A stretch of 64,000 nucleotides of DNA from Acididesulfobacillus acetoxydans (lineage in GTDB: Bacteria; Bacillota; Desulfitobacteriia; Desulfitobacteriales; Desulfitobacteriaceae). This document shows, in pieces, positions 17,160-26,545 of this stretch. How positions within the stretch are numbered: position 1 is the first letter of the stretch; every line of letters begins with the position of its first letter. Location: assembly GCF_902729405.1 (NCBI RefSeq), contig NZ_LR746496.1, forward strand, positions 1,426,001 through 1,490,000, in the 5' to 3' direction. Position numbers and translations under genes: made by a program. The notes beneath the pieces are model-generated. The model ran no database searches. It had not been told where the DNA came from and worked only from the letters and a program-made list of their open reading frames with translations.

Positions 17160-17393
17160 GTTCATGAGTGCCCAGGGGCTGTCCTGTTTCGGTGGCAGTC
17201 GGGGGTGGGATAAGGACCGTTAACCTAAGTTTACAGACCTGTTGGCGCAATATTCAGGTATTTGCTCCGGCATGCACTTATAATATCTAGTGTGGATTAT
17301 AATCTTTTGATGACGTATACACCTCCTGCCGGCCGGCAGGGAAAGAAGTGTGAGCCGTTGGTTGAGGGACGTTCATCCGGGGGGTGGAAAAGG

Positions 17394-18962
17394 ATGCAAA
17401 CAACGGAAGATCCGAGCATTGCCGGGATTATCGGCGACAGTCCCCAGATTCTTGACCTAAAACAAGCGGTTCTGAAGGTTGCTCCACGTAATACGACCGT
17501 GCTGATCACAGGAGAGACTGGAACGGGGAAAGAGCTGTTTGCCCAAGCGCTGCATCAAGGCAGCTTGCGCCGTTTTAAGCCGTTTGTCCGGGTCAATTGC
17601 GCGGCGATTCCGGAGGCACTTTTGGAATCGGAGTTATTCGGCTATGCCGAGGGAACGTTTACCGGGGGCAAAAAGGGCGGCTACCTGGGAAAATTTGCGC
17701 TTGCGGACGGCGGCACGGTTTTCCTGGACGAAATGGCCGAACTGCCTTTGGCGCTTCAGGCTAAACTTTTGCGCTTCTTGGAAGAACATGAAATTCAACG
17801 CTTGGGGGAGAGTTTGCCCCGGAGAGTCAACGTGAGGGTGGTGGCGGCCACAAATGCCAATCTTGTGCAACTGGTCAAATACAAGAAGTTTCGCAGTGAC
17901 CTCTACTACCGCCTCAATGTTGTGACTTTGGAAATACCGCCCTTGCGCAGCCGGAGGGAAGACATTCCCGTCCTGACCCGAGCTTTTATGAAGCAGCTGA
18001 ACGCGGAGTACGATTATAGGGTTTACCGTCTGGACGCTGACATACAGCGAATTTTCGACAGCTATCACTGGCCGGGAAACGTACGCGAATTACGTAATAT
18101 TTTGGAAACGGCGTTCAACTTGCATGATGGGGGGCAAGAGCTGAACGTCGGACATTTACCCCCGTATTTGCGAAGATGGTTTCAGGAACAAACGGAGAGA
18201 GCAAAAACGGTGAGCCTGGCTTCGGGTGTTTCGACAGTCGGACAGGTTGAGGCGGACGCCGGAGGGGAGAGAAAGGAGGGGATGGACGAAACCGTTCGGC
18301 GGGAAGGCGAAGCGTGGAGAGGCGGGAAGGTCGGCCGCCGGCCCCGAGCAAGCCGGCGGCCGACGGCCAAAGAGGAAAAAGAAAGGGCTTTTTGGCGGCC
18401 TGAAGCGCAGGGGACGATTGAGGCAAGGGGTAGAACAAACGAGTCTGGAGAGGGAGCGAAGGAAGCAGGAAACAGGGCCATGGAAACAGGAGGCGAGGCA
18501 AAGGGGGCAGGGGCCACAGCTAAAGAAGCCGGGAGCGGGGCGAAGGAAGCAGAAGGCAGAGTGAGCGTAGAAGGGAAGAAGGTGAGGGAGGGGGCGGCCG
18601 GGACAAACGAAGAAGAAAGAAGGAACCGGGAAGACCGAACAGACAAAGAAGATAGAGCGGGCGAAGAATGGGGTAAAGCGAGCAAAGGAAGGGGCGGAAG
18701 GGACGAAGGAAGAACCGCAGGGGACAAAGGGAGAACCAGATCAGCCGAGGAATGGGACGGAGCGGGCGAGGCGATAACCTGGACAGAATGGGTAAATATG
18801 ATAGGCAGGCGGTCCCTGGCAGAGATTACCGATCTGTTTGAAGGAAAGCTTTTGCTCCATCTTTTGGGCAGTGGGCGTAACAGGACGGAGATGGCAGACC
18901 TGTTGGGGATCTCACGCCAGGCCCTATATAAGAAACTGCAAAAATACCACCCGGGAAAGTAG
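17394..18962 (+). CDS. Sigma-54-dependent transcriptional activator without sensor domain
   Basis: This 522-residue bacterial enhancer-binding protein starts almost directly with its AAA+ domain. Walker A is GETGTGKE (residues 40-47), the sigma-54 contact loop reads GTFTGG (87-92) instead of the usual GAFTGA, Walker B is GTVFLDEMAEL, and the arginine-finger/sensor region RSDLYYRLNVV and WPGNVREL are present. A roughly 195-residue low-complexity linker (about 265-462) rich in Gly, Glu, Arg, Lys and Ala separates it from a C-terminal Fis-type helix-turn-helix (NRTEMADLLGISRQALYKKL). ATG 17394 is preferred behind GGGGGGTGGAAAAGG; longer in-frame starts at 17262 and 17310 exist. Directly downstream lie a dyad, a -24/-12 promoter and the acyl-CoA genes, its likely target. 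Confidence 0.88.
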   Translation: MQTTEDPSIAGIIGDSPQILDLKQAVLKVAPRNTTVLITGETGTGKELFAQALHQGSLRRFKPFVRVNCAAIPEALLESELFGYAEGTFTGGKKGGYLGKFALADGGTVFLDEMAELPLALQAKLLRFLEEHEIQRLGESLPRRVNVRVVAATNANLVQLVKYKKFRSDLYYRLNVVTLEIPPLRSRREDIPVLTRAFMKQLNAEYDYRVYRLDADIQRIFDSYHWPGNVRELRNILETAFNLHDGGQELNVGHLPPYLRRWFQEQTERAKTVSLASGVSTVGQVEADAGGERKEGMDETVRREGEAWRGGKVGRRPRASRRPTAKEEKERAFWRPEAQGTIEARGRTNESGEGAKEAGNRAMETGGEAKGAGATAKEAGSGAKEAEGRVSVEGKKVREGAAGTNEEERRNREDRTDKEDRAGEEWGKASKGRGGRDEGRTAGDKGRTRSAEEWDGAGEAITWTEWVNMIGRRSLAEITDLFEGKLLLHLLGSGRNRTEMADLLGISRQALYKKLQKYHPGK

Positions 18963-19060: not shown

Positions 19061-19088
19061 CCGGGTGTCAAACAAAGATGACACCCGG
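19061..19088. promoter_or_regulatory. 10-bp dyad, candidate enhancer site for the sigma-54 activator
   Basis: CCGGGTGTCA (19061-19070) and TGACACCCGG (19079-19088) are perfect inverted copies around an 8-base loop. The centre is about 170 bases upstream of the -24 box, a usual distance for an upstream activator sequence. There is no T tail, so a terminator for the activator gene is a weaker reading but cannot be excluded. Confidence 0.5.
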
Positions 19089-19242: not shown

Positions 19243-19259
19243 TTGGCCGGTAATTTGCT
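19243..19259 (+). promoter_or_regulatory. Sigma-54-type (-24/-12) promoter
   Basis: TTGGCCGG at 19243 and TTGCT at 19255 place the invariant GG (19245-19246) and GC (19257-19258) exactly 10 bases apart, as in TTGGCAC-N5-TTGCW. Two of the less conserved -24 positions differ from consensus. It lies between the sigma-54 activator gene and the acyl-CoA ligase gene and would give a leader of about 105 bases. Confidence 0.6.
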
Positions 19260-19374: not shown

Positions 19375-21042
19375 ATGCCTAACGTATTGCACCAAACGAT
19401 CGGGGACCTGCTGGATGAGGTGAGCGAACGGTTGCCGGACAAAGAAGCTATGGTTTATGCGGATCGGCCTGTGCGCCTCAGCTACAAGCGGTTGAGAGAG
19501 GAAGCGGACCGGGTCGCCAAGGCCCTGATTGGCTTAGGGATCCGCAAGGGGGAATCGATTGCCCTCTGGGCCACCAATGTCCCCGAGTGGATACTTTTGC
19601 AAATGGGCAGTGCCAAAATGGGAGCTGTCCTGGTTACGGTGAATACCCAGTATAGGAGTACCGAACTGGAATATCTGCTGAAGCAGTCCGACAGTGCGGT
19701 TATTTTTCTGGTGGAGGGGGTGAAACAGACTCACTATGTCGAGATTTTAAGTTCCGTGCTGCCTGAATTCACGCGCCATCCCCAAGAACAGCCCTACACT
19801 TATCCCGCCTTGCCCAAACTCAGATACAGGATTCTGCTGGCGGATAAACAAGTTCCGGGTTTGCTGAATTGGCCGGAGTTCCTGGCTCACGGCGCCGGGG
19901 TAACGGACGAAGTACTGAAAGAGTATCAAGAGAATACCCGTCCCGAGGATGTCATCAATATCCAGTACACCTCGGGCACGACCGGTTTCCCCAAAGGGGT
20001 TATGCTCACACACTATAATATTGTCAACAATGCTAACGCGGTGGCCGACGCCATGAATCTGCGGGAAGAAGATCGTCTTTGTTTCCCGGTGCCGCTCTTC
20101 CATTGTTTCGGCTGTGTCATGTCATCTCTAGCCTGTGTGACCAAAGGAGCCACTATGGTTCCCGTGGAATACTTTGAACCCAACGCGGTTCTCAAAGCGG
20201 TGGAGCAAGAGGCTTGCACCGGTTTGCAGGGCGTACCTATGATGTTTATTTCCGAACTGGAGACGCTGAAAACCACCCCTTATGATATTGGGACTTTGCG
20301 CAAAGGAATCATGGCGGGGTCTCCCTGTCCGGTGGAAGTGATGAAACAAGTGATCGGGACGATGGGAATGGAGGAGGTGACCATTGCCTATGGGCAGACG
20401 GAGTCCTCACCGGTCATAACCCAAACCCGGATTGACGATCCTCTGGAACGTCGGGTAACGACGGTGGGTCGGAAGTTGGATGGGGTTGAGGTTAAGATCG
20501 TGGATCCGGCTACGGGAGAACCCGTACCCTATGGGCAGCAGGGCGAACTCTGTGCCCGAGGTTACAGCATTATGGCCGGTTACTACAATATGCCGGAAGC
20601 CACCGCCCAGGCCATTGACGCGGAGGGATGGCTGCACACGGGGGATCTGGCGGTTATGGATGAAGCCGGCTACTGTAACATCACCGGCCGCTTGAAAGAC
20701 ATGATCATCCGCGGCGGCGAGAACATTTATCCGCGCGAGATCGAAGAGTTTCTCTACCGTCATCCCAAGATCGCCGACGTTCAAGTCGTGGGGCTGCCGG
20801 ATATAAAGTATGGTGAGGAAGTCTGCGCCGTGATCCGCCTGCGCGAAGGGGAAACGGCCACGGCGGAAGAGATTCGGGACTTTTGCCGGGGGCACATTTC
20901 CAACCACAAGATTCCCCGCTACATTGATTTTGTGCAAGGATATCCGGCGACGGCCAGCGGCAAGATACAAAAATATCGCTTACGCGAGATCTATATTGAG
21001 AAATATAACCTGCAAGAGGCGGCCGCGGTCATCACAGCTTAA
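19375..21042 (+). CDS. AMP-forming acyl-CoA ligase
   Basis: This 555-residue member of the ANL superfamily activates a carboxylic acid to its CoA thioester via an acyl-adenylate. The phosphate-binding loop YTSGTTGFPKG (about residue 200), YGQTESSP, the hinge region WLHTGDLAVMDEAGYCNI and GRLKDMIIRGGENIYP, and the C-terminal catalytic lysine in TASGKIQKYRLRE are all present. It resembles medium/long-chain fatty-acyl-CoA and cyclohexanecarboxyl-type ligases; the true substrate is unknown. The start is ATG 19375 behind AGAGGGGGG. It is the first gene after the -24/-12 promoter and should supply substrate to the downstream thiolase-like protein and acyl-CoA dehydrogenase. Confidence 0.9.
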   Translation: MPNVLHQTIGDLLDEVSERLPDKEAMVYADRPVRLSYKRLREEADRVAKALIGLGIRKGESIALWATNVPEWILLQMGSAKMGAVLVTVNTQYRSTELEYLLKQSDSAVIFLVEGVKQTHYVEILSSVLPEFTRHPQEQPYTYPALPKLRYRILLADKQVPGLLNWPEFLAHGAGVTDEVLKEYQENTRPEDVINIQYTSGTTGFPKGVMLTHYNIVNNANAVADAMNLREEDRLCFPVPLFHCFGCVMSSLACVTKGATMVPVEYFEPNAVLKAVEQEACTGLQGVPMMFISELETLKTTPYDIGTLRKGIMAGSPCPVEVMKQVIGTMGMEEVTIAYGQTESSPVITQTRIDDPLERRVTTVGRKLDGVEVKIVDPATGEPVPYGQQGELCARGYSIMAGYYNMPEATAQAIDAEGWLHTGDLAVMDEAGYCNITGRLKDMIIRGGENIYPREIEEFLYRHPKIADVQVVGLPDIKYGEEVCAVIRLREGETATAEEIRDFCRGHISNHKIPRYIDFVQGYPATASGKIQKYRLREIYIEKYNLQEAAAVITA

Positions 21043-21260: not shown

Positions 21261-22517
21261 TTGAGACCAGTATATATGATTGCCGGGGGCATTACCAAGT
21301 TCGCCAAGGCATCCCCACGCAAAGATTTCCGTTATATGGTCAAAGAAGCCTTTGACCAAGCGATGGCCGATGTGCCCGGTCTGACCTTGGATATGATTGA
21401 CGGCTCGGTGGCGTCTTATTTTTCCGATCATTTTACACGGCAGCTGATGGCCGGGATCATGGTCCACGACTACTTGGGTCTGACGCCGAAACCTTCAAAA
21501 CGGATTGAATCCGGCGGTGCCACCGGGGGAATGTGCATCCAATCGGCCTGGGAGGCAGTGGCCAGCGGGCGGATGGATGTTTGTGCGGCCTTTGGCTTTG
21601 AGACCATGTCCCATGTCAACACTTGGAAAGGGAACGAATTCATTGCCCTTGCTTCCGATACCAACTTCGACTATCCGGTCGGAGGATTTTACACCGGGTA
21701 CTATGCCATGATGGTCAAACGGCACATGTATGAATTCGGCACGACAGAAGAGCAGCTGGCGGCTGTGTCTGTGAAGAATCATGCCAATGCCCTGCACAAT
21801 CCTTATGCCCAATTTCCGGCGGAACTCACCATTGAAGATGTGTTGAAGTCGGAGATGATTGCCGATCCATTAAAACGCCTGGATATCTGTGTCATGTCAG
21901 ATGGGGCTGCGGCGGTCATTCTGGCCTCTGAGGAGATGGCCCGGAAACTCACGGACAAACCGGTGCGGATCAGCGGAGTCGGTACTGGGACTGATGCCAT
22001 GCGCATGGCTGATCGTCCCTCCCGTGAGGTCATTCTCCTTCCGCACGAGAACGCGGCCGACTATAAGGGTCTGAAATATCCCGGGGTCCACTCTTTCCGG
22101 GGCGGCCGGACGGCGGCTAAGGAGGCTTACAAGATGGCCGGTATCACCAATCCTCTGGAAGAACTCGACTTCGTCGAACTGCATGACGCGTTTACCTCTT
22201 CCGAAATCCAGACCTATGAGGACTTGGGCCTGTGCAAATATGGTGAAGGGGGTAAGTTCGTCGAGTCCGGTGCGGCCGGCCTGGGAGGAAAAGTCCCGGT
22301 CAATCCTTCCGGCGGGCTCCTGGCCTGCGGACATCCGGTCGGCGCGACCGGCTTGATGCAAGGAGTCTTTGCTTTGTGGCAGTTGCAAGGCACCATCGGT
22401 CAGCATTTCAACGGGGATGACACCCTCCAGATTAAGAACGCCAAACGGGGGCTCATTCACAGTCATGCCGGCACCGGGACCTATATTACTGTAAGCGTGA
22501 TGGAGAGGGGGTTCTAA
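21261..22517 (+). CDS. Thiolase-superfamily protein lacking the nucleophilic cysteine
   Basis: This 418-residue SCP-x-type thiolase homologue starts at TTG 21261, 8 bases after GGAGG. Against SCP-x thiolases (motif NNNCATGS) the segment reads ESGGATGG, so the position of the acyl-carrying cysteine is Gly86. The other catalytic landmarks remain: His308 in ELHDAF, and His358 in NPSGGLLACGHPVGATG. The last active-site loop reads LIHSHAGTGTY instead of HNLGIGG. It is followed three bases later by a DUF35 gene, the usual partner in archaeal-type thiolases, BbsAB and the Ltp2 aldolase. With no Cys nucleophile, ordinary thiolysis seems unlikely. A retro-aldol or other C-C cleavage/condensation is a reasonable guess, or Cys92 nearby could act instead. 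Confidence 0.85.
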   Translation: MRPVYMIAGGITKFAKASPRKDFRYMVKEAFDQAMADVPGLTLDMIDGSVASYFSDHFTRQLMAGIMVHDYLGLTPKPSKRIESGGATGGMCIQSAWEAVASGRMDVCAAFGFETMSHVNTWKGNEFIALASDTNFDYPVGGFYTGYYAMMVKRHMYEFGTTEEQLAAVSVKNHANALHNPYAQFPAELTIEDVLKSEMIADPLKRLDICVMSDGAAAVILASEEMARKLTDKPVRISGVGTGTDAMRMADRPSREVILLPHENAADYKGLKYPGVHSFRGGRTAAKEAYKMAGITNPLEELDFVELHDAFTSSEIQTYEDLGLCKYGEGGKFVESGAAGLGGKVPVNPSGGLLACGHPVGATGLMQGVFALWQLQGTIGQHFNGDDTLQIKNAKRGLIHSHAGTGTYITVSVMERGF

Positions 22518-22520
22518 AGC

Positions 22521-23030
22521 ATGAGTGCGGAACAACGGACGAACTCGGCGGGCAAAGTGAAACTGGAAGAACAGGAGATAGGGGCGGTTCTTTACAACGT
22601 GGATCCCATCATAATGAAGTACCACTACGAGATTGACTACATGCACAGTTATGCCCAAGATTCGCCCTTCTTTGAGGGCTTGAGCAAAGGAGAACTTTGG
22701 GGGAGCAAGTGCCCGGTTTGCGGCAGTACCTTTGGCACCCCGCGCGGCCATTGCATGAATTGCGGAGCTAAGACGGAATGGATGCAACTTCCGTTGGAAG
22801 CAAAGATCCACACTTATACCACCTGCTATTTCGGCAGTCAGGAATTTCTGGCGGAGACTCCTTTTACTTTGATCCTGGTCGAATGGCCGAATGTGGATAC
22901 TTTTTTCCTTTCCCGTTTGTTGGGGGTGGCCCCGGACGAGGTTAAAATTGGTATGCCGGTGAGGGCCAAGTTCAGACGCCTGAGCCAGTTCAAACCGACG
23001 GATGTCTATTTTGTTCCGGAAGAGAGTTAA
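22521..23030 (+). CDS. DUF35 zinc-ribbon/OB-fold partner protein
   Basis: This 169-residue protein has an N-terminal helical stretch (about residues 1-50), a rubredoxin-like zinc ribbon with four cysteines (CPVCG...CMNCG, about residues 67-87) and an OB-fold (GIH-like KIHTYTTCYFGS through VRAKFRRLS). DUF35 proteins form stable complexes with thiolase-superfamily enzymes and help bind the CoA ester. The gene starts three bases after the stop of the thiolase-like gene, which argues for a complex. A Phe/Tyr-rich segment precedes the ribbon (YMHSYAQDSPFFEGLSKGEL), as in partners of acyl-CoA thiolases and the ChsH2 DUF35 domain. Confidence 0.88.
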   Translation: MSAEQRTNSAGKVKLEEQEIGAVLYNVDPIIMKYHYEIDYMHSYAQDSPFFEGLSKGELWGSKCPVCGSTFGTPRGHCMNCGAKTEWMQLPLEAKIHTYTTCYFGSQEFLAETPFTLILVEWPNVDTFFLSRLLGVAPDEVKIGMPVRAKFRRLSQFKPTDVYFVPEES

Positions 23031-23140: not shown

Positions 23141-24283
23141 ATGTTGGATTTAACGGCCGAACAAAAAGCCCTCCAAGACATGGTACATTCCTTCGCTCAG
23201 GAAGTCATCGCTCCGGGAGCGGCCCAACGCGATAAAACGGGAGAGTTTCCCTTGTCCATCGTAAAGCAGATGGGGGAATTGGGGCTTCTGGGGCTTCCCT
23301 TTGCGGAGGAATTCGGTGGGACGGGCGGGGATTATGTTTCTTACGCGATTGCCGTGGAAGAGATCACCCGGGCTTGTGCCTCCACGGGTATCACTTATGC
23401 GGCCGACCTTTCCCTCGGGATCAGTCCCATTTATCTCTTCGGTACGGCGGAGCAAAAAGAAAGGTACCTTCCCTCCCTCTTTCGCGGGGATTACTTGGCG
23501 GCTTTCGGGCTGACGGAGCCGGAGGCCGGCTCGGATGCCGGCGGCACCCGGACCCGGGCTGTGCGCGGAGAGAACGGTTGGGTGCTGAACGGTTCCAAGT
23601 GTTTTATTACCAATGCCGGCTACGCCGGGGTGGTGACCGCCACCGCGGTTACGGCTCCCGAGCGCGGCACCCGGGGAATCAGCGCTTTCCTGATCGAACC
23701 GGGAACCCGGGGTTTTCAGGTCAATTCTTCTTACGAAAAACTGGGTCTCCATGCCTCCAATACGACCGAACTCGTCTTTGACGAGGCGAATATTCCCCTG
23801 GGGAATCTTTTGGGGAAGGAAGAAAATGTAGGTTTCAAGCAGTTCCTGCAAATTCTGGATAGGGGAAGAATCAGCATTGGAGCTATGGGAGTGGGTTTGG
23901 CCCAGGCCTCCCTGGATGCAGCCCTGGCCTATGCCAAGGTGCGCAAGCAATTCGGCCAGCTCTTGAGTTCCTTTCAGGCCATTCAGTTTAAACTGGCGGA
24001 TATGGCGACCCATGTGCAGCTTTCCCGGCTGGCGGTTTGGAATGCAGCCCGTTTAAAAGACGCGGGTAAGCCTTTTACCCAGGCTGCGGCTATGGCCAAA
24101 CTCCATGCCTCGGAAACCGCCGTCAAGTGTGCCCTGGAGGCTATCCAAATCCACGGAGGGTACGGCTACATGCGGGAATACCCGGTGGAACGCTATCTGA
24201 GAGATGCCAAGCTCCTGGAGATCGGGGAAGGGACTTCGGAGATCCAGCGCCTGGTGATCGCCCGTTCTTTGGGGTGTGCCTGA
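23141..24283 (+). CDS. Acyl-CoA dehydrogenase
   Basis: This 380-residue FAD enzyme introduces an alpha,beta double bond into an acyl-CoA. The family signatures [15 protein letters not shown] (about residue 120) and [22 protein letters not shown] are present, as is the segment [15 protein letters not shown]; the catalytic glutamate is expected in GEGTSE. The start is ATG 23141 behind GGAGGAGGGG. It is the last gene of the acyl-CoA module. Its electrons would normally go to an electron-transfer flavoprotein, which is not encoded in the window. The stop codon region is tandemly repeated three times. Confidence 0.92.
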
Positions 24284-24680: not shown

Positions 24681-25472
24681 TTAGCCGTGGTGTCTGGCAG
24701 CACCGACGTGAAAATGAGAGCGCTCGTGGATCAAGTTGACATCTAAGAGCAAGTTGCGGTCGGACAGAATTTTTAACGTGGGGCCGTCGGCGGCCAGGGT
24801 ATGATCCTCCCGGATGACGATGACTCGCTCCGCAATGTCTTCGACGATAGAAAGGTCATGTGTGGCTATGATCACGGTTTTGCCCGCGTCTTTTAAGGCG
24901 GTGAGGAATTCCACCAGCCAGAATTGGGTGCGGGGATCCAGACCGTTAGTGGGTTCGTCCAAGAAGAGAACTTCGGGATTGACGGCTAGGACGCTGGCCA
25001 AGGCGACTTTCTTTTTCTCGCCGCCGCTTAAACGGTAAGGGGGGCGCTCCAAGAGATGTTGAATTCCCAGGAGTTCCGCTGTGTCCCGGACCCTTGTCTG
25101 TACCGTTTCGGTGGGGAGTCCGGCCTGCAGCGGGGCGAAAGCGAGTTCATCCCAAACGGTGGCCGAAAACAACTGCGCATCGGAGTTTTGAAAGACAAAG
25201 CCAACCTGTTGCCGGAAATTTTGCAAAAAAGCCTGGTTTCGCAGACTTTCCTCACTGAGTGTCTGGCCGAACGCCGTAATCTCTCCCGCGGTCGGAAAAA
25301 TCAGCCCGCAAAGCAACTTGAGCAAAGTGGATTTGCCGCTGCCGTTGGCTCCTAATATGGCTAAACTCTCCCCTTGATACAGATCCAAGTTGATCTGCGT
25401 CAAGACGGGCTTGTCCGGAAGGTAATTATAGGAAACGCTTCTTAAGGTAAAAAGCGGTATTGACTTCGTCAT
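24681..25472 (-). CDS. ECF-type transporter ATPase, CbiO/NikO-like
   Basis: This 263-residue ABC ATPase belongs to the energy-coupling-factor group for cobalt/nickel. It has Walker A GANGSGKST, the Q-loop VFQNSDAQLF, the signature LSGGEKKKVALAS, Walker B VLFLDEPTNGLD and the switch histidine in IATHDLSIVED. ATG 25472 follows GGGAGG at 6 bases; the GTG at 25478 would overlap the ribosome site. The upstream CbiQ-like gene stops within the same few bases, so the two are coupled. Located with cooT, nickel is the likeliest cargo. Confidence 0.9.
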   Translation of the reverse strand: MTKSIPLFTLRSVSYNYLPDKPVLTQINLDLYQGESLAILGANGSGKSTLLKLLCGLIFPTAGEITAFGQTLSEESLRNQAFLQNFRQQVGFVFQNSDAQLFSATVWDELAFAPLQAGLPTETVQTRVRDTAELLGIQHLLERPPYRLSGGEKKKVALASVLAVNPEVLFLDEPTNGLDPRTQFWLVEFLTALKDAGKTVIIATHDLSIVEDIAERVIVIREDHTLAADGPTLKILSDRNLLLDVNLIHERSHFHVGAARHHG

Positions 25473-25474
25473 AT

Positions 25475-26416
25475 TCACCCTCCCAATACTTTGTCCGCGG
25501 CATAGAGAGTAAGGCTGGAAAGAAGGATGACCCCTGTTGTGAAGAGATCAAGCCACGTGAGCTTAAAGTGCCGGGAGAGGCGGACTTCGCCGTTGTAACC
25601 CCGGGCGGCCATGGCCTGATAGATTTCTTCGCTCATCAATTGGGATTTACCGAAGAGCCCGCCCATAGAGGAGGCTACAAAGCGACGTTGTTCCTTGATA
25701 TCGGAAAGACCGGCATCGCGCGCCTTGCGGGCCATGAACATTTCCTCCAGGCTCATAACTAAGACAAAAATGTAGCGGTACGTCATTTCCAAAGTGGCGA
25801 CAAATATCTTTGGCAGGAAGAAGGTGCGCAGAGCGCGCAGAAGATCATGCCAGCGAGTGGTGAGCGTGATGATCATGGCCAAACTGACGGAGATTCCTAC
25901 CCGGCTCACGAGCAGAGCGTCCCCCTGCAGGCCTTGTTTGGTAATGGCCAGGGTGGCAGGAAGGCGCCAAGGGCCGATCCGGAGCGGAGCCCCCAGATGA
26001 AAGAGGGTAAAGAGGGGGTCTCCGGGCCGCACCCAGCTAAAAAGTGCGGGCAGGGCCATGATTCCGGTGAACAGCGGCACGACCAGCCAAACCCTTTTCA
26101 GAAGAGAGCGGACTGAAAGGCCGGACAAGTGGGCCGCCAAGAGGAGAACCAGGTAAAATCCCCAGAGAAGGGTAAGATGGCTTAGCAAATTAAGGGAGAT
26201 CAACAAGAGGAGGAGGGCCATCACTTTAACCCGAGGATCGAGAGATTGCAAAAACCCGGGTTGTAAAGCGACTTCTTCCGAGAAGACGGAAGCGTGCAGG
26301 AAACGAATGATATCTTCCAAAGTCTTTTGCACAAACCCCTGCTTCTTCCGTCTGCCCAGGCAGCCACAGGGGCAAAGAGCGGGGCTGTTTTCTTGGAGCC
26401 AATCGGGAAGCTTCAT
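25475..26416 (-). CDS. ECF transporter transmembrane (T) component, CbiQ-like, with Cys-rich N-terminus
   Basis: This 313-residue protein has about five to six membrane helices and the cytoplasmic coupling motifs of the EcfT family (MFMARKARDAG and YQAMAARGYNGE, where AARG is the conserved signature). The first 40 residues form an unusual soluble extension with the cysteine cluster CPCGC (residues 15-19) followed by basic residues, which could bind metal. ATG 26416 is chosen with GGGGGA 6 bases upstream; a longer frame to 26512 lacks a ribosome site. No substrate-binding S component (CbiM/NikM type) is encoded next to it. Confidence 0.85.
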   Translation of the reverse strand: MKLPDWLQENSPALCPCGCLGRRKKQGFVQKTLEDIIRFLHASVFSEEVALQPGFLQSLDPRVKVMALLLLLISLNLLSHLTLLWGFYLVLLLAAHLSGLSVRSLLKRVWLVVPLFTGIMALPALFSWVRPGDPLFTLFHLGAPLRIGPWRLPATLAITKQGLQGDALLVSRVGISVSLAMIITLTTRWHDLLRALRTFFLPKIFVATLEMTYRYIFVLVMSLEEMFMARKARDAGLSDIKEQRRFVASSMGGLFGKSQLMSEEIYQAMAARGYNGEVRLSRHFKLTWLDLFTTGVILLSSLTLYAADKVLGG

Positions 26417-26545
26417 GGTCGTTCCCCCACTGTCTTGTTTTTTGCCGGCATGCGCCGGGGCGAAACCCCGAACTGATGTGCTTGGACTCCCATCCCGGGG
26501 CCCGGCCGGCATCGGAGTAGCGAGTCCGGCCTTTGTGTCCGGGAG

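Follow-up and report, generated by a model that had tools for sequence, protein, structure and literature searches.

We analyzed a 64,000-nucleotide stretch of the Acididesulfobacillus acetoxydans genome (contig NZ_LR746496.1, positions 1,426,001 to 1,490,000; hereafter, the window), the host being a sulfate-reducing bacterium of acid-mine habitats. Here, a gene for a thiolase-fold protein is followed after 3 bases by a gene for a DUF35 protein, with an acyl-CoA ligase gene upstream and an acyl-CoA dehydrogenase gene downstream (Table 1). The thiolase-fold open reading frame (ORF) starts with TTG behind a plausible ribosome site; its product of 418 amino acids has the Pfam domains Thiolase_N and Thiolase_C_1. 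It has the fold and domains of DUF35-associated and SCP2-type thiolases but not the nucleophilic cysteine that these carry at the N-terminal end of a buried helix, and the classical thiolase mechanism via an acyl-cysteine is impossible for it. The pair is a real, widespread and uncharacterized version of a fold and a partnership that are already known. We estimate a probability of roughly 0.6 that it is a DUF35-bound enzyme that breaks or forms C-C bonds in CoA thioesters by aldol-type chemistry, whatever the substrate and in either direction. A short, branched 3-hydroxyacyl-CoA would be the best reading of the substrate class.

Table 1. Genes, catalytic-site codons and putative control elements around the thiolase-fold/DUF35 gene pair (window coordinates).
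Feature	Position	Strand	Remark
Sigma-54-dependent activator gene (AAA+ domain and Fis-type helix-turn-helix)	17262..18962	+	Pfam Sigma54_activat (E 2e-65), HTH_8
Perfect inverted repeat CCGGGTGTCA-N8-TGACACCCGG	19061..19088	no strand	Sequence and repeat scan
-24/-12 (sigma-54) promoter element TGGCCGGTAATTTGCT	19244..19259	+	115 bp upstream of fadD
AMP-forming acyl-CoA ligase (FadD-like, PRK12583 group)	19375..21042	+	806 bits vs cut-off 832
Thiolase-fold protein of the PRK06365 family lacking the nucleophilic Cys; proposed CoA-thioester aldolase	21261..22517	+	
Gly86 codon	21516..21518	+	Position of the thiolase nucleophilic Cys
His308 codon (ELHDA)	22182..22184	+	Opposite catalytic Tyr302 of Sal and Tyr294 of Ltp2
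His358 codon (GHPVGA)	22332..22334	+	Opposite catalytic Tyr344 of Ltp2
His402 codon (HSHAGTG)	22464..22466	+	Invariant in both subfamilies
DUF35 partner, 169 aa	22521..23030	+	Pfam zf-ChsH2 and OB_ChsH2_C
Acyl-CoA dehydrogenase	23141..24283	+	Pfam

Conservation was counted over the 80 closest relatives, fetched from genome contigs and 71 to 98% identical to the window protein (fetched loci carry L numbers and genomes G numbers, G000 being the window genome). In phmmer and profile alignments, Gly86 lies opposite the nucleophilic cysteine of 6esq and 7yvy (EAACASG), 7pxp (BbsB; QSACSAG) and 6hsj (SCP2-thiolase; NNNCSTG) and opposite a serine in 4yzo. The glycine was kept in all 80 relatives, which makes it a family trait and not a sequencing error, and it is also present in a sister subfamily at ~42% identity. 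His358 and Ala310, the latter facing Cys304 of the aldolase Sal, were likewise found in 80 of 80 relatives, His308 in 79 of 80, and His402 in all 79 that could be read there. These four residues and Glu306 hold with few or no exceptions even at ~42% identity, which makes a dead enzyme less likely. An earlier reading of the sequence (the original prediction) had proposed that Gly86 replaces the nucleophile while His308 and His358 remain, and these counts bear it out. It had also raised Cys92 and Cys108 as possible occupants of the nucleophile position; neither lies there, and both vary (Cys in 62 and 72 of the 80 relatives, respectively).

The single exception at position 308 is L021 (8001-9254; from a metagenome-assembled genome [MAG]), an otherwise ordinary family member that reads ELYDAYT and so has a tyrosine, as do the active sites of Sal and Ltp2. 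Though a single MAG sequence, this variant fits a base at position 308.

The steroid aldolases Sal and Ltp2 are the two experimentally characterized aldolases of this fold. Glycine replaces the nucleophile in both, and a contact between its backbone amide and the substrate hydroxyl has been proposed; Tyr302 serves as base and Cys304 as acid in Sal, and in Ltp2 the catalytic residues are Tyr294 and Tyr344 (PMC12329534). Their complexes, Sal-Shy (9myr) and Ltp2-ChsH2 (6ok1), resemble the window pair in the thiolase fold, the glycine and the DUF35 partner. At 24 to 26% identity, however, the other catalytic residues differ: the tyrosine of YDxF/Y (YDHF in Ltp2 and YDCY in Sal) is His308 of HDA(Y/F) in the window protein, and at the places of the second catalytic residue (Cys304 of Sal and Tyr344 of Ltp2) stand Ala310 and His358. 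The alignment thus confirms a statement in the original prediction, that Ltp2 has lost both histidines, by placing tyrosines opposite His308 (YDHF) and His358 (GEAYIHG). The shared glycine in both characterized aldolases, along with a base at the His308 position, supports the aldolase reading, and by analogy with these two enzymes the candidate aldolase-type function originally suggested is still the most likely one. The known Sal and Ltp2 partners carry a MaoC hydratase (PMC12329534); none was recognized near the window gene, although no search was aimed at MaoC.

By this analogy, His308 would deprotonate the 3-hydroxyl of a 3-hydroxyacyl-CoA, after which the C2-C3 bond would break. The thiolase oxyanion hole, together with His358 and perhaps also His402, may hold the resulting acyl-CoA enolate until its protonation, while the freed aldehyde or ketone would occupy the space of the acyl-cysteine, against the backbone amide of Gly86.

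The DUF35 gene recurs beside the thiolase-fold gene in 71 of the 80 loci, in agreement with the pairing noted in the original prediction. It is nearly always directly downstream and mostly starts within ~100 bases of the gene end; at least 700 bases of downstream sequence were present in 72 loci, and the loci lacking DUF35 are mostly on short contigs. The partner has a C4 zinc ribbon (C64/C67/C78/C81), an OB fold and, in a conserved extension at its N terminus, H42-S43-Y44 and F50-F51. Each of the 72 aligned partners, among them that of the window, retains the four zinc-ribbon cysteines and P29, Y36, Y40, H42, S43, F50 and F51. The two proteins are predicted to form a physical complex.

An AlphaFold2 model of the thiolase-fold protein (pLDDT, 85.7; pTM, 0.90) gave its best structural matches to 6esq (Z = 55.2), 7yvy (53.5), 7pxp (51.1) and 4yzo (50.3), followed by Ltp2 (6ok1; 46.0) and Sal (9myr; 44.5), which places the predicted fold nearest to DUF35-bound and related thiolases. 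The archaeal acetoacetyl-CoA thiolase that acts with DUF35 and 3-hydroxy-3-methylglutaryl-CoA (HMG-CoA) synthase (6esq and 6et9) and PFC_04095 (7yvy) share the fold, 34 to 38% identity and the equivalents of His308 and His358, and 6esq likewise has a DUF35 partner; unlike the window protein, they keep the nucleophilic cysteine, and no HMG-CoA synthase gene lies next to the window gene. Benzoylsuccinyl-CoA thiolase, BbsAB (7pxp), also combines a thiolase with a zinc-ribbon subunit and has an HDAF motif with the alanine; toward its C terminus, close to the place of His402, it also has a Ser-His pair. BbsB has retained its cysteine, however, and the window protein, at 201 bits, stays below the BbsB cut-off (750) and is not a member. 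Both histidines typical of SCP2-type thiolases, those of HDxF and GHPxGA, are present in the window protein.

In the best tree, the family and its sister subfamily formed one clade (100/99) that fell with the archaeal thiolases, BbsB, SCP2-thiolase and ST0096 and was separated from Ltp2, Sal and the SLP-like proteins (100/100); the rows for Protein Data Bank entries were rebuilt from printed alignments, with some ends missing. The tree thus leans toward a cysteine loss separate from that of Sal and Ltp2. Grouping the family with Sal and Ltp2 was not rejected in an approximately unbiased (AU) test (P = 0.52), so a single loss and more than one loss are both compatible with the data. The original prediction had viewed the protein as an intermediate form between thiolases and Ltp2. 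This view finds no support in the best tree, itself tentative given the AU result, or in the invariant set of the family's own (G86, H308, A310, H358 and H402), which lacks both the Ltp2 pair of tyrosines and the Tyr/Cys combination of Sal.

Another thiolase-like protein without the cysteine is ST0096 of Sulfolobus tokodaii (4yzo), which has a serine instead and does not group with this family. In the tree, it groups with a second cysteine-less protein of the window genome (G000:C1:1752650-1753666; L003 1315-2535 and L114 8459-9682), which has a proline at this position (VENGPASG). The gene for this paralogue is followed by a DUF35 gene of its own (L003 2489-2878), and by eye it has carbamate kinase, FdrA-like and xanthine-dehydrogenase-like genes nearby. 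A further candidate aldolase is an actinobacterial SLP/Sal-like protein (L103; G458:C1:1423019-1424140) with the motifs HMGGASS and YDCF.

The window protein scored 704.8 bits against the cut-off of 695 for NCBIfam NF004982 (PRK06365) and is therefore a member of a family that NCBI names by domain only ("thiolase domain-containing protein"). Many close relatives fall just below this cut-off, which thus spans only part of the group. The family is annotated as thiolase in genomes despite lacking the residue that thiolases need. The literature searched, mainly open-access papers, yielded no characterized PRK06365 member and nothing on the family, on a 3-hydroxyisovaleryl-CoA aldolase or on a link between the mutase described below and DUF35. 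The closest homologue (98% identical) belongs to Peptococcaceae CEB3, the nearest sequenced relative of A. acetoxydans INE (PMC8982180). By record title, other relatives come from Firmicutes, Chloroflexi, Nitrospirae, Deltaproteobacteria (including Geobacter relatives), anammox bacteria, Planctomycetes, Acidobacteria (Terriglobia), Methylomirabilota, Tectomicrobia, Thermoleophilia and Thermoplasmata, and identity between archaeal and bacterial members exceeds 70%. The placement of the enzyme "in an anaerobe" in the original prediction was thus too narrow, as soil Nitrospirota, Acidobacteria, Planctomycetes and Thermoplasmata have members as well. The sister subfamily, found in Desulfobacterota (L085-L092; ~41 to 43% identity), keeps GGATGG (IKTGGATGG), ELHDAFT and SHAG (SHAGVGSH), with MHAVGA in place of GHPVGA. 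Its genes, too, have DUF35 and mostly dehydrogenase neighbors and, in one case (L087), adjoin a B12-dependent mutase of the isobutyryl-CoA mutase type with an adenosyltransferase-like gene.

Neighboring genes were counted by label transfer over all ORFs of the 80 loci. The most frequent were those for acyl-CoA dehydrogenase (37 loci) and the small and large subunits of a B12-dependent mutase (28 and 25); others were those for 3-hydroxybutyryl-CoA dehydrogenase (14), the MeaB GTPase (13), canonical thiolase (12), 2-oxoacid dehydrogenase E2 (10) and enoyl-CoA hydratase (7). An acyl-CoA dehydrogenase of the same motif type as in the window adjoins the gene in most loci possessing one. The neighboring mutases have Phe and Gln at two diagnostic positions wherever these could be read, which we take to indicate isobutyryl-CoA mutase (Tyr and Arg presumably indicating methylmalonyl-CoA mutase). 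The window genome itself encodes one mutase of either type, neither of them close to the window. A hydratase-like gene lies between mutase and aldolase genes in L037, L043 and L072, and in Desulfosporosinus the same stretch holds CoA-transferase genes, one of them resembling butyryl-CoA:acetate CoA-transferase. The E1 and E2 neighbors match general pyruvate/2-oxoglutarate dehydrogenase models and carry no branched-chain label, and the Thermoplasmata loci have none of these catabolic neighbors. Overall, the gene context probably reflects catabolism of a short branched acyl-CoA derived from branched-chain amino or fatty acids. Fifteen loci also contain a metallo-hydrolase gene resembling YtnP lactonase (209 bits against a cut-off of 425; e.g., L038 6749-7609), located between or beside the mutase subunits and the aldolase.

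Oxidation at C3 is impossible for a tertiary 3-hydroxyacyl-CoA, and an aldolase would be a natural way out. Such an exit from a C3-blocked compound has a precedent in the C3-side-chain steroid substrate of Ltp2. The CoA ligase or transferase, acyl-CoA dehydrogenase, hydratase and aldolase genes fit a compound of this kind, the simplest being 3-hydroxyisovaleryl-CoA. As a tentative choice of substrate, we therefore favor 3-hydroxyisovaleryl-CoA, from leucine or isovalerate, which would yield acetone and acetyl-CoA. It is equally tentative that many bacterial phyla and the Thermoplasmata have an undescribed, carboxylation-free end to leucine and isovalerate degradation, in which isovaleryl-CoA would be dehydrogenated, hydrated and then cleaved (or, in reverse, formed) by the pair, beside a valine route through isobutyryl-CoA mutase. 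The classical route, used for isovalerate by Desulfococcus multivorans through methylcrotonyl-CoA carboxylase (MCC) and HMG-CoA lyase (PMC5109826), is mostly missing from carriers of the gene: HMG-CoA lyase was above the cut-off in 1 of 49 and MCC-beta present in 2 of 60, counts that are small and drawn from genomes that share ancestry. If the pair is an aldolase, some maps of branched-chain degradation are wrong at the cleavage step, and aldolase chemistry on the thiolase fold extends well beyond steroid breakdown.

Among other explanations, the one that survives best, though unlikely, is different enolate chemistry (decarboxylation or C-acyl transfer from a nonthioester donor) or a noncatalytic scaffold. 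TbSLP, a relative that groups with Sal, slowly decarboxylates malonyl-CoA, but CtSal lacks this activity (PMC12329534), and the invariance of the catalytic histidine set over ~42% identity and a wide phyletic range argues against both chemistry of this kind and a scaffold. The next three explanations are sub-cases of the aldol class. Somewhat less likely still is retro-aldol cleavage of another branched 3-hydroxyacyl-CoA, either 3-hydroxyisobutyryl-CoA to propionyl-CoA and formaldehyde or 2-methyl-3-hydroxybutyryl-CoA to propionyl-CoA and acetaldehyde. Several Nitrospirota and anammox clusters contain genes of the methylcitrate cycle (PrpB/C/D), which would consume the propionyl-CoA, and the tight linkage to the isobutyryl-CoA-mutase-type enzyme is consistent with such a substrate. 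However, ordinary oxidative routes exist for these compounds, the mutase would render the valine variant redundant, and A. acetoxydans does not grow on propionate (PMC8982180).

We regard as doubtful that the pair replaces HMG-CoA lyase, converting HMG-CoA to acetoacetate and acetyl-CoA. The window protein matches thiolase models and is not homologous to the HMG-CoA lyase fold family (PRK05692), so this would be a nonhomologous replacement. It would suit L029, where the alpha and beta subunits of MCC and a methylglutaconyl-CoA-hydratase-like gene are clustered with the pair in a genome (G015) without HMG-CoA lyase above the cut-off, and CoA-transferase genes lie near the gene in L010, L011, L055, L094 and L097. 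A role drawn from L029 is weakened by the absence of MCC-beta from 58 of the 60 carriers, the window genome included, in which leucine would give no HMG-CoA. L029 is on a MAG contig titled Candidatus Undinarchaeales (JASMDC010000005.1), an archaeal name, and its leucine/electron-transfer-flavoprotein cluster, with MCC, a LiuC-like hydratase and the aldolase pair, looks bacterial; a misbinned contig or a transfer is possible.

More improbable is a synthetic direction, in which acetyl-CoA would be joined with an aldehyde or with acetone, for example, acetone formed from 2-propanol. A. acetoxydans oxidizes 2-propanol (PMC8982180) and the window genome yielded no gamma subunit of acetone carboxylase, but the dehydrogenase, ligase and transferase genes linked to the pair point to the breakdown of acids and there is no MCC to process the product further. 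An enzyme joining acetone and acetyl-CoA would, if real, have direct use in biocatalysis. An ordinary thiolase with a different nucleophile, Cys210 or a bound thiol, is the least credible alternative: Cys210 is invariant in the relatives, but it sits in another strand (C-x-x-SDGA), has equivalents in Ltp2, BbsB and SCP2-thiolase whether or not the nucleophile is present, and was rejected along with the variable Cys92 and Cys108, while the 12 clusters with a canonical thiolase already have thiolase activity supplied.

Several points weigh against an aldolase acting on 3-hydroxyisovaleryl-CoA. The dehydrogenase in the window has a motif of the Glu376 type, unlike that of isovaleryl-CoA dehydrogenase. 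Acetone carboxylase was found in only 3 of the 60 carriers and was discarded as the onward enzyme, which leaves acetone without an obvious onward route. The full MCC and the methylglutaconyl-CoA-hydratase-like gene beside the pair in L029 also run counter to a carboxylation-free route. Mutual exclusion with HMG-CoA lyase, which we considered as proof of the leucine route, failed as such, since the background was low or the overlap near expectation: the lyase was present in 56 of 198 Desulfobacterota, 18 of 198 Nitrospirota and 3 of 48 Geobacteraceae, compared with 1 of 9, 0 of 7 and 1 of 9 high-scoring carriers, respectively. Its rarity in some groups means that absence from carriers is not exclusion. 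Furthermore, Ala310 stands where Sal requires Cys304 as the acid, and the C304A variant of Sal is inactive (PMC12329534); the proton donor must therefore be a different residue, for which His358 and His402 would be candidates. Finally, the aldolase activity and the complex are both predictions.

Upstream of the pair, the sigma-54-dependent activator is likely the regulator of the operon, and 13 of the 80 loci, mainly in Desulfosporosinus-type genomes, have a comparable regulator close to these genes. A -24/-12 match also occurs just upstream of fadD, the acyl-CoA dehydrogenase gene or the aldolase gene in nine Firmicute loci (L005, L006 and L008-L014). It is this recurrence that supports the promoter, as the single match in the window, against 1.45 expected by chance, is not significant as a count. 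The perfect inverted repeat is a candidate activator site but could equally have another role, and none was found at the equivalent place in L005.

Elsewhere in the window genome, a region examined by eye (L113; G000:C1:2037000-2052000) contains genes for a hydratase, a 3-hydroxyacyl-CoA dehydrogenase, a 472-amino-acid HMG-CoA-synthase-like protein and two acyl-CoA ligases, together with a cysteine-bearing SCP2-type thiolase (L002). Right after the operon, on the minus strand (24681-26512), lie ABC ATPase and transmembrane genes that, also by eye, resemble cobalt/nickel uptake genes of the CbiO/CbiQ type.

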